DNA of 64,000 nt. It comes from Myxococcales bacterium. GTDB lineage: Bacteria; Myxococcota; Myxococcia; Myxococcales; JAJYLH01. This document shows, one piece after another, positions 49,647 through 59,272 of this stretch. The notes beneath the pieces were generated by a model. That model saw nothing but the letters and a program-made list of their open reading frames with translations. It did no database searches and was not told the origin of the DNA. The stretch covers positions 1 to 64,000 of the forward strand of contig JAJYLH010000012.1 in the NCBI GenBank assembly GCA_021787845.1, read 5' to 3'. Made by a program: the position numbers and the translations under genes. Position 1 is the first letter of the stretch. The number at the start of each line of letters is the position of its first letter.

Positions 49647-49981
49647 CCCTAGCTGGCATCCTGAGACATTGAGCACGAAGCGCGATGTCTCTGGGAGCCG
49701 TCTGGAGTCTTTGGCGATTCGGTCGAATGTCTCGGGGAGGCGCCTGGAGTCTCTGGTGGTCCGGGCGAACGTCTCCGGGAGGCGTCGGGAGACATCGAGC
49801 CGACGGCACAATCACTCTGGGAGGCGCCTGGAGTCTTTCGCGATCCGGTCGAATGTCTCCGGAAGGCATCCGGAATCCCTCGCGCCGAGGCGAATCACTC
49901 TGGACGCCTCCTGGAGACATTCGCTGTCGACGTGAAAGACTCCGGGAGCCTCCCGAAGGGATTCGTTCTCCTGGCGAAGCT
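49647..49981. repeat. Tandem array of about eight 42-bp units
   Basis: Units start at 49647, 49689, 49731, 49773, 49815, 49857 and so on, each about 42 bp with the consensus CTCCGGGAGGCG-CTGGAGTC-...-CGGTCGAATGT. Units differ by 20-40%, and a few have one base fewer. 42 bp equals 14 codons, so a frame (SGRRLESLAIRSNV-like) stays open through the array on one strand, but it has no conserved start and I do not call it a gene. The remaining parts of the gap 49501-50092 show nothing else. Confidence 0.7.
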
Positions 49982-50092: not shown

Positions 50093-52873
50093 ATGACCGA
50101 CCATGCGCGCGAGCCGACCGGGAGCCCTTCCAAGGAGACCATCGCCGCGTTGCGGGAGGAGGTGGCGCAAGCGCACGCGGCGCGCCATCCGGGGAGTGAG
50201 ATCGCGCGGCTCTTCGCACGAGGCATCGACGCGATCGTCGCCTCGGCGTTCGCGCGGGCGCTGGAAGCGGTGCCGCTCCCCGGTTGCGCTCTGGTCGCCC
50301 TGGGTGGTCTCGGCCGGCAGGAGCTCTCCCCGTTCAGCGACGTGGACCTGCTGCTCGTCGTTCCCGAGGCGGCGCGCGACGAAGCGGAGCGGCTCGCGCA
50401 CGCGCTCTTCACGCCGCTGTGGGATGCGGGGCTCGAGCCGGGAACCGCGTTGCGCACGCCGGCCGAGGCGTTGGAGATCGCGCGCGCCGATCACACGGCG
50501 GCCACCGCGATGCTCGACGCGCGGTTCCTCGCCGGCGACCCGGTCGCGGTCGATCGCCTCCTGCATGGATTTTGGATGGAGCTGCGCGGCGAGGCGCTGG
50601 AGGCGTTCGTCGCGGCGAAGGCGGCGGACCTGGCGGAGCGGCGGGCGCGGTTCGGTGGCTCGGTCTACCTCCTGGAGCCGAACATCAAGAATTCCCCCGG
50701 CGGCATACGTGACCTCTCGACCGGCCTCTGGATGGCGCATGCCCGGCATCGTGTCCGAGGGCTCGATGATGTCGCCGCGGCGCGCCTGCTGCCGGCGCAG
50801 GAGGTCGAATCCCTCCGGGAGGCGCGCGAAGGGCTGCTGACGATTCGCTGCGCGCTGCACCTCTTCGCGGGGCGGCGCGACGACCGGCTGACGTTCGAGG
50901 CGCAGGAGGAGATTGCGAAGCGCCTCGGCTACGCCGGTTCCGCGCACGCGCTCGCGGTCGAGCAGTTGATGCGCGACTACTACCTCGCCGCGCAGAGCAT
51001 CGAACACGCGACCGACGCGCTCATCGACCGCTGTGCGCACGAGGCGAAACCGGGGCCGAGCGAGCGGCGACCGATCGACGACGACTTCGAGCTCATCGGC
51101 GATCGCGTGGCGCTCCGCGGGTCGATAGCTCTCGTTGATCGCCCGGAGCTGGTGGTCGAATTGTTCGTCGCGGCCGAACGGGAACGGGCACCGGTCCTGC
51201 CCAGCGCGCGCGACCAGGTGGCGCACGAGGTCGCGCGGCTCGGCGAGAAGCTCGCGACGATGCCCGCGCCGATGCGGGCGTTCCTCGCGTATCTCGAAAG
51301 CCCGGGCGCGAACGGGCGCGCGCTCGACGGGCTCCACGAAACGGGTGTGCTCGGCGGGCTTTTTCCGGAATTCGCGCGGCTCAAGGCGCGGGTGCAACAC
51401 GACGCGTACCACGTGTTCACCGTCGACACGCACACGCTCTTCGCCCTCCAGAAGCTCCTCCGGCTGCGCGCGGGCGAGCTCGACGCCGAGGAGCCGGGGT
51501 TCACGAGGCTCGCCCAGGACCTGGCGGATCCGCTGCCGCTCTGCTTGGCGCTGCTCTTCCACGATCTCGGCAAGGCGACCGGCGGAGGCCACGCCAAGAA
51601 AGGCGAAACGCTCGTGCGGGACTGGGGGGAGCGAGCGGCTCGCGCCGCGGGTTCGCCCCCGTTCCCGCGGCCGGCCGCCCTGTTGTCTCCGCGGTCGGGA
51701 CCCGCGGGCGAGCCAGACTCGCACCCGGTCGATCGGACCGATCAGTCGGATCCGACCGATCGGTCCGATCGGCGTGACGCGCCGCCGAGTCAACCGCCGC
51801 CTGGTGACTTCACCGCTCCTGTCCCCCTCGACCCGCACACCATCGGCGCTGCTGCCTTCCTGGTGCGCGAGCACCTGACGCTCTCGCAGATTGCGTTCCG
51901 CCGCGACCTGTCCGACCCGGCGCTCATCCAGCGCGTCGTCGACCTGGCCGGCACCCGCGAGCGCCTCGACGAGCTGTACCTCCTGACCTACGCGGACATC
52001 TCCAGCGTCGGCCCGGAGACCTGGAACGACTGGCGGGCGCGGCTGCTCGCGGAGCTGTACGACAAGGCGCGCGCCCGACTCGATTCCGATCTGCCTCAGG
52101 TCGCGCAGACGCGCACCGAAGCCGCGCTCGCGGGTGCGAGAGCCCTCCGGCAACTCGTGGGCGCCGACCCCGAGCTGGAGCGCTTCATCTCCCTGCTCCC
52201 GGAGCGGCACGTGGCGACGGTTCCCGCTCGGGCGGCCCGCGCGCATTTCGAGCTGTGGAAGCGCGCCCGCGGGCGGCTCGCGACGGGCGAGGTCCACCCG
52301 CGGCCGGACGCGGGAAACGTCTCCGAGCTGGTCATCGTCGCCGACGATCGACCGGGGCTCCTCGCGGACATCGCCGGCGTGCTCGCCGCCCACAGCATCG
52401 ACATTCTCAGCGCGGAGATTTTCTCGCTCACCGACGGACGCGCGCTGGACAGCTTTCTCGTACGCGAGCCGGGAGGGCTGCCGGCCTCCGCGGAGCGCTG
52501 TGCGCGAGCGCTCCTGGACCTCGAACGGCTCCTCGCGGGAGAAGAGACGGTGCCCGAGCTGGTCGCGCGCCGCCGCGGAGCGAGCTTCGTCAGCGCCGGA
52601 CCCGCGGTACCGACCCGCGTGCGATTCGATCTCTCCGCCGCCCGCGACGCGACCGTCCTCGACGTCTTCACCCGCGACCGCATCGGCCTCCTGCACGACC
52701 TCGCCGCCGCCATCCACGACGCGGGCGCCTCCATCGTCCTCGCCCGCGTCGCGACCGAAGGCAACAAGGCGACCGACGGCTTCTATCTGCAGGATGCGAA
52801 CGGCCGGAAGATCGCCGACCCGGCAGCGCTCGAGCGGCTGCGGACCGCGGTCGAGCAGGCGCTCGCGACGTGA
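50093..52873 (+). CDS. glnD: Bifunctional uridylyltransferase / uridylyl-removing enzyme GlnD
   Basis: 926 residues. The nucleotidyltransferase domain (GGLGRQELSPFSDVDLLLV, about 72-90) uridylylates PII; the HD domain (LFHDLGKATGGGHAKKG, His 490) removes UMP; two ACT domains (about 742-800 and 850-920: VADDRPGLLADIAGVLAAHS, FTRDRIGLLHDLAAAIHDAG) sense glutamine. GlnD is the primary nitrogen sensor. Inside the HD domain, about residues 525-585 form a low-complexity insert containing DRTDQSDPTDRSDRRD, encoded by the dispersed palindrome at 51731-51772. The insert sits between the HD core and the conserved HLTLSQIAFRRDLSDP helix. No clear ribosome site precedes the ATG. The start was chosen by family length. 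Confidence 0.93.
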   Translation: MTDHAREPTGSPSKETIAALREEVAQAHAARHPGSEIARLFARGIDAIVASAFARALEAVPLPGCALVALGGLGRQELSPFSDVDLLLVVPEAARDEAERLAHALFTPLWDAGLEPGTALRTPAEALEIARADHTAATAMLDARFLAGDPVAVDRLLHGFWMELRGEALEAFVAAKAADLAERRARFGGSVYLLEPNIKNSPGGIRDLSTGLWMAHARHRVRGLDDVAAARLLPAQEVESLREAREGLLTIRCALHLFAGRRDDRLTFEAQEEIAKRLGYAGSAHALAVEQLMRDYYLAAQSIEHATDALIDRCAHEAKPGPSERRPIDDDFELIGDRVALRGSIALVDRPELVVELFVAAERERAPVLPSARDQVAHEVARLGEKLATMPAPMRAFLAYLESPGANGRALDGLHETGVLGGLFPEFARLKARVQHDAYHVFTVDTHTLFALQKLLRLRAGELDAEEPGFTRLAQDLADPLPLCLALLFHDLGKATGGGHAKKGETLVRDWGERAARAAGSPPFPRPAALLSPRSGPAGEPDSHPVDRTDQSDPTDRSDRRDAPPSQPPPGDFTAPVPLDPHTIGAAAFLVREHLTLSQIAFRRDLSDPALIQRVVDLAGTRERLDELYLLTYADISSVGPETWNDWRARLLAELYDKARARLDSDLPQVAQTRTEAALAGARALRQLVGADPELERFISLLPERHVATVPARAARAHFELWKRARGRLATGEVHPRPDAGNVSELVIVADDRPGLLADIAGVLAAHSIDILSAEIFSLTDGRALDSFLVREPGGLPASAERCARALLDLERLLAGEETVPELVARRRGASFVSAGPAVPTRVRFDLSAARDATVLDVFTRDRIGLLHDLAAAIHDAGASIVLARVATEGNKATDGFYLQDANGRKIADPAALERLRTAVEQALAT
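51731..51772. repeat. Dispersed palindromic repeat, copy 1 (inside glnD)
   Basis: Runs of GATCGGACCGAT- and GACCGATCGGTCCGATCGG-like sequence. Shares a 26-bp identical stretch with 59204-59242 (GGATCCGACCGATCGGTCC and beyond), and resembles 54769-54807. Read in frame it encodes Asp/Arg/Ser/Thr residues in GlnD. Confidence 0.8.
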
Positions 52874-52953: not shown

Positions 52954-53079
52954 CGCTCCTCCCTCGACTGCGCTCGGGATGAGCGGAACGGGCGAGCGAC
53001 AGGGCTCGGAGCGGCGGTGCTTGGCAATCCCTTCGTCTCGACCAACCCGCTCATCCCGAGCGCAGTCGAGGGAGGAGCG
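52954..53079. repeat. Inverted pair of the CGACTGCGCTCGGGATGAG repeat
   Basis: Arms 52954-52986 and 53047-53079 are perfect 33-bp inverted copies with 60 bp between them. The core matches repeat copies A (1-107) and B (55077-55204). The rest of the 375-bp gap after glnD has no gene. Confidence 0.8.
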
Positions 53080-54768: not shown

Positions 54769-54807
54769 CATCGGACCGATCGGTCGGATCGGTCCGATCG
54801 GTCGGAC
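54769..54807. repeat. Dispersed palindromic repeat, copy 2
   Basis: ATCGGACCGATCGGTCGGAT followed by CGGTCCGATCGG. Lies 18 bp after the lipoprotein stop, where its self-complementarity could end transcription. Confidence 0.75.
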
Positions 54808-55076: not shown

Positions 55077-55204
55077 AGGGCGGGCGGTTGGGGCGGCAAC
55101 GCGCTCGTCCCTCGACTGCGCTCGGGATGAGCGGCGTTGCCCATGCGACCTGGTGGCGTTGCCCATGCGACCTGGTGCGGTGATCCCGACAAGCAGCCCG
55201 GTCC
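55077..55204. repeat. Dispersed repeat, copy B
   Basis: Related to 1-107 along its whole length, with a 22-bp tandem duplication (GGCGTTGCCCATGCGACC...) in its right half. GCTGAGCGCAGTCGA just upstream is an inverted copy of the core, so the left part can form a hairpin. Confidence 0.75.
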
Positions 55205-59179: not shown

Positions 59180-59203
59180 CTGCTCGCGTCGCGGGCGGCT
59201 GAC

Positions 59204-59242
59204 GTCCGATCGGACGGATCCGACCGATCGGTCCGATCGGAC
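59204..59242. repeat. Dispersed palindromic repeat, copy 3
   Basis: GTCCGATCGGACGGATCCGA followed by CCGATCGGTCCGATCGGAC. Between convergent genes, 25 bp after the NtrC-family stop, so a bidirectional terminator role is possible. Confidence 0.8.
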
Positions 59243-59272
59243 CTCGATAGGCCGCCGCGACCCTGGCGACGT

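Follow-up and report, generated by a model that had tools for sequence, protein, structure and literature searches.

What is a palindromic DNA sequence, recurring elsewhere in the same stretch of a Myxococcales genome, doing in frame within glnD, and does it alter the encoded enzyme? To answer these questions, we analyzed the 64,000 nucleotides of contig JAJYLH010000012.1 in which the gene lies (hereafter the window) together with the remainder of the genome, related genomes and viral contigs. With a probability that we put at roughly 0.65 for the explanation as a whole, its lineage specificity included, the sequence in glnD is a copy of a REP-like element specific to this lineage, namely a copied palindrome that normally lies just past stop codons and that is tolerated in frame within genes. 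This reading is based on the observed copy number, common unit order, placement at gene 3' ends, absence from relatives and use of one reading frame, and on predicted disorder.

The array in glnD and its protein context

All three copies of the repeat that had been claimed for the window are present (Table 1), and the 26 identical bases said to be common to the copy in glnD and the copy at 59204 were recovered as CGGATCCGACCGATCGGTCCGATCGG. The DNA of the glnD copy is CGATCGGACCGATCAGTCGGATCCGACCGATCGGTCCGATCGG, the bases 1-42 of which form a palindrome centred on GGATCC with one mismatched pair. The other two copies lie at gene ends, as proposed, one of them 18 nt past a stop codon and the other in a convergent gap, 23 and 29 nt away from the two stops. 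Another dispersed repeat, CGCTCGTCCCTCGACTGCGCTCGGGATGAGCGG, occurs in the window in both orientations, and an inverted pair of it is located directly 3' of glnD.

Table 1. Features of the window, and arrays on a contig with phage genes (positions refer to the window unless a locus is named).
Feature	Position	Strand	Remarks
42-bp tandem repeat	49655-49924		directly upstream of glnD
glnD, [protein-PII] uridylyltransferase, 926 aa	50093..52873	+	TIGR01693 653 bits (cut-off 519); Pfam GlnD_UR_UTase, ACT, HD
Codon of GlnD residue 499	51587-51589	+	G; adjoins invariant H500
62-residue insert (residues 515-576)	51635..51820	+	between two HD-domain helices; alignment with 18 relatives
Palindromic array of 9-bp units	51730-51772	+	inside the glnD insert; read as VDRTDQSDPTDRSDR
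Second copy of the array	54770-54806	.	past the stop of a + gene ending 54751
Third copy of the array	59203-59243	.	between convergent genes ending 59179 (+) and 59273 (-)
CGCTCGTCCCTCGACTGCGCTCGGGATGAGCGG repeats	26-58, 52954-52996, 53037-53079, 55102-55134		both orientations
Arrays on locus L232	2023-2053, 3164-3190, 5249-5266, 6183-6218

An alignment of GlnD with 18 relatives revealed that none of the 18 has a residue at the place of the insert; a different insert at this place in relatives, which would have made the repeat similarity look like chance, was looked for and is likewise absent from all 18. The expectation of a repeat-bearing insert of about 60 residues thus held for the insert, but the palindrome encodes no more than 15 of its 62 residues. 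For the DNA behind the remaining 47 residues, the genome yielded no further copy; this DNA is single-copy, for which reason we rejected the idea that the whole insert is a mobile unit. A scan of a collection of genome contigs for GlnD returned only distant Pelobacter GlnD. In an AlphaFold2 model of the protein (15-sequence alignment, mean pLDDT 79), the insert lies between helices 500-518 and 581-601 with a pLDDT of about 32, residues 527-577 having values below 50, and the prediction makes it a disordered loop that connects two HD-domain helices. The residues H440, H447, H490, D491, H500 and D635, which we take to be part of the HD active site, are invariant in the alignment, this GlnD included. 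A PII gene is present in the genome.

A repeat family of 9-bp units at gene 3' ends

The element is about 43 bp long and near-palindromic, and it is assembled from 9-bp units of the form SGATCSGWC. Each unit is its own reverse complement up to phase, and consensus units are free of stop codons in all frames. Throughout the genome (6.24 Mb in 153 contigs, 98% complete), an 18-mer pattern of two successive units gave 795 forward matches against 0 for a reversed control pattern, far more than chance would give. The prediction of a dispersed palindrome lying in frame within glnD is borne out. A 32-mer variant of the array was found at 15 places in the genome, with 8 of the 15 being identical, glnD among them. 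Within a 2.05-Mb sample of the genome, where genes were called by a purpose-built hexamer-based gene caller, we counted 140 arrays (about 430 by extrapolation to the genome), most of which are 32-48 nt long in the first 1.26 Mb of that sample. Other high-copy 14-mers in the sample are CGTGTCCGGCTCCA (72), CCGCTCATCCCGAG (69) and GACGCCCGTGCCAC (53), and several dispersed repeat families coexist in this genome.

The arrays have a common unit order, with 35.8 net matches to that order versus 29.0 ± 0.26 when the variable letters were permuted within each array, a score that measures sharing and not origin since the common order was taken from the same arrays. Array symmetry was 11.9 compared to 10.5 ± 0.28 for shuffled arrays. 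Because the unit order is common far beyond chance, the arrays look like copies of one element, and independent microsatellite growth was rejected on these grounds. The flanks of the arrays are not conserved and their similarity (3.16 versus 3.17 in shuffled pairs) gave no sign of a target-site duplication, which led us to reject a MITE with flanking direct repeats. The view that the repeat is mobile is sustained by its copy number and shared sequence, and mobility is probably how the copies spread, but we found neither a mobilising enzyme for it nor a target-site duplication nor, outside glnD, a close relative with an empty/filled site.

Counting the arrays together with their position in genes showed that 93% of the sampled copies are extragenic, 10 of the 140 (7%) being located in genes compared to the 81% expected by length. 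The others were found in convergent (48), tandem (65) and divergent (12) gaps or at stretch edges (5), and 24% of the convergent gaps carry an array (48/203). Most extragenic arrays lie no further than 125 nt after a stop codon; their density peaks within 75 nt of the stop, at about 1.5 per 1000 positions, and is almost nil beyond 200 nt, although that range holds almost half of the positions available. As RNA, the arrays have a mean minimum free energy of −28 kcal/mol versus −14 kcal/mol after shuffling. The hairpins are not followed by a T-run (1.63 T per 12 nt downstream, no excess over the mirrored upstream side), and a role as intrinsic terminator was rejected for this reason; the mismatches of tandem-gap arrays have no G-U bias in the transcript sense. 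Judged from its sequence and placement, the element resembles a REP-like 3'-end hairpin, which may act, as RNA or as DNA, at the 3' end of transcripts.

Within genes, all seven internal arrays of the sample are read in one frame, (D-R-S/T)n, which gives a charged linker (T-D-R-S-D-R...). They are located in GlnD, a TPR-like protein (two arrays), a spermidine-synthase-like/FMN-binding membrane protein, a Band-7 protein, a glycosyltransferase-like membrane protein and a NirA-like nitrite/sulfite reductase, "TPR-like" and "spermidine-synthase-like" being our readings of the sequences. An eighth copy in the same frame, in a GltD-like glutamate synthase small subunit outside the sample, came to light because it resembles the copy in glnD, and two of the seven cases share one gene, so that the cases are few and partly dependent on each other. 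The hydrophobic I-G-P frame was seen once, in a C-terminal tail. Since the consensus units are stop-free in every frame, stops can account for little of the choice of frame. The array of the NirA-like protein falls within a linker whose length varies among relatives. Nitrogen metabolism is represented by three of the enzymes that carry a copy in frame (GlnD, and the NirA-like and GltD-like proteins of loci L108 and L204), a grouping that may be coincidence given so few cases.

The pattern matches at most once per strand in any of 144 further genomes of the order, a comparison in which this genome is the sole member of its family, and in the wider phylum only genomes G150 (73 matches) and G165 (16) exceed this number. 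The arrays of these two that could be read are nearly all coding, for D-G-S repeats in G150 and for Asp-rich linkers in G165. BLAST searches with the DNA returned no relatives on plasmids or isolated phages, a result on which the low-complexity filter may bear. In IMG/VR, 17 stretches of contigs have at least three units, and the exact unit order of the genome's element is absent from that collection. On one of these contigs, L232, which has phage genes and a first large ORF matching portal proteins, three junctions have an array whose first position is the final base of the stop codon, and in a fourth the array starts 24 nt past the stop. Further metagenomic phage contigs show a similar placement: on each of L234, L236, L242, L243, L244, L245 and L246, one or more arrays come to within about 12 nt of where a gene ends, and four copies on L242 are intragenic and read in the D-R-S/T frame. 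It is conceivable, if rather improbable in our estimation, that arrays of 9-bp units are a general 3'-end signal of hosts and phages, in which a stop-free, frame-preserving unit doubles as gene-end hairpin and protein spacer.

Relation to known palindromic elements

REPs are reported to lie near gene 3' ends, most of all in convergent gaps, and are known inside genes in several species (PMC3733652). The present element shares the general features of REPs, being a short palindrome in many copies that is mostly extragenic (140 arrays, 10 in genes) and near 3' ends. It resembles the GTAG and CGTC super-families (PMC3733652) in being high-copy, rich in convergent gaps and found in some ORFs, but differs from them in its stem of about 20 bp composed of 9-bp units, as opposed to mostly 6-9 bp with a loop, and in having neither the terminal GTAG or CGTC tag nor a linked transposase. 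CGTC is present at 20 of 248 array ends (8%) versus 36 of 850 internal sites (4%), and GTAG is not among the common 4-mers at array ends; as the end tags are missing, membership in these super-families was rejected. The genome does encode a REP-associated tyrosine transposase (RAYT, NF047646; C24, locus L175, 1324-1788), and a second, weak Y1 match was found at L176. The RAYT of L175 is flanked by GTAGGATGGACAGTCC repeats of the GTAG type (at about 1105 and 1786) and not by an array of 9-bp units. These repeats are a separate REP family of the genome, and mobilisation of the element by this RAYT in a REPIN/RAYT system was rejected because the flanking repeats differ from it.

Palindromic elements inserted in frame are known in Rickettsia (PMC10969869), and like those RPEs the present element lies in frame within unrelated protein genes, with an insertion in GlnD that the 18 relatives lack and further in-frame copies. 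RPEs are however about 150 bp long with nearly half of them in ORFs, compared to about 43 bp and 7% in genes here. The mobile RU repeats of enterobacteria (PMC2759123), which are intergenic and also encode peptides within genes, measure 103-168 bp and do not consist of short tandem units. Inverted repeats also lie within functional protein-coding genes of Nematomorpha mitochondria (PMC6649704), but there the palindrome arms encode conserved protein regions, whereas the element described here is dispersed and lies in a non-conserved loop. No description of this repeat family was found in the part of the literature that we covered. In-frame palindromes are thus already known from Rickettsia RPEs and intragenic REPs; what we take to be new is an untagged family with a stop-free consensus.

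Weighing the explanations

The GATC of the unit, which with the fixed G and C positions is its best kept part, could indicate that an array is a cluster of Dam sites working via methylation and not via hairpins, all the more since each array has about four to five GATC sites at a 9-bp spacing and the genome encodes a Dam-family methyltransferase. We consider this unlikely, because of the 9294 GATC sites in the sample only about 6% (595) fall within arrays, the other fixed positions of the unit are also kept, and methylation leaves the symmetry and the 3'-end placement unexplained. That every internal in-gene copy reads as a hydrophilic linker, and that the examined arrays of G165 and G150 lie in coding repeats, is what one would expect if D-R-S/T repeats were selected as flexible linkers and the palindrome were a by-product of codon choice or slippage of 9-bp units. 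The intergenic majority in this genome (93% of copies) weakens such a protein-level origin, as does the unit order common among copies, and we regard it as quite unlikely.

The original prediction went further in suggesting an effect on UMP removal, which our data do not support. An insertion that tunes or weakens uridylyl removal would be in the right place, within the HD domain that carries this activity, and the glycine at residue 499, where nearly all aligned relatives have aspartate, stands beside the invariant H500. Yet the invariant HD residues are intact, the insert is a predicted disordered loop between helices, and other copies occupy linkers of unrelated enzymes, which together make this the least probable of the explanations considered. 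Based on the alignment and the model, the GlnD insertion is most likely a tolerated loop that leaves catalysis unaffected, and it would then be neutral.

The preferred explanation, a REP-like element of this lineage, would operate as follows. A near-perfect palindrome of about 43 bp, built from self-complementary 9-bp units, would be copied around the genome, its copies normally being placed just past stop codons, where a strong hairpin could form at transcript ends. Because the 9 bp of a unit correspond to three codons and the consensus is stop-free, copies that land in genes can be read through, and selection would retain them in flexible loops or linkers in the (D-R-S/T)n frame. In GlnD, the copy would occupy an HD-domain loop that is enlarged and disordered.

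The element adds a myxobacterial lineage to the settings of in-frame palindromes, next to Rickettsia and the tagged REPs, and the rule on frame is unusually clean, every internal case found using one of three frames. With about 30 in-gene copies expected in this one genome, a number extrapolated from the 2.05-Mb sample, the tolerance of proteins for dispersed DNA becomes testable.
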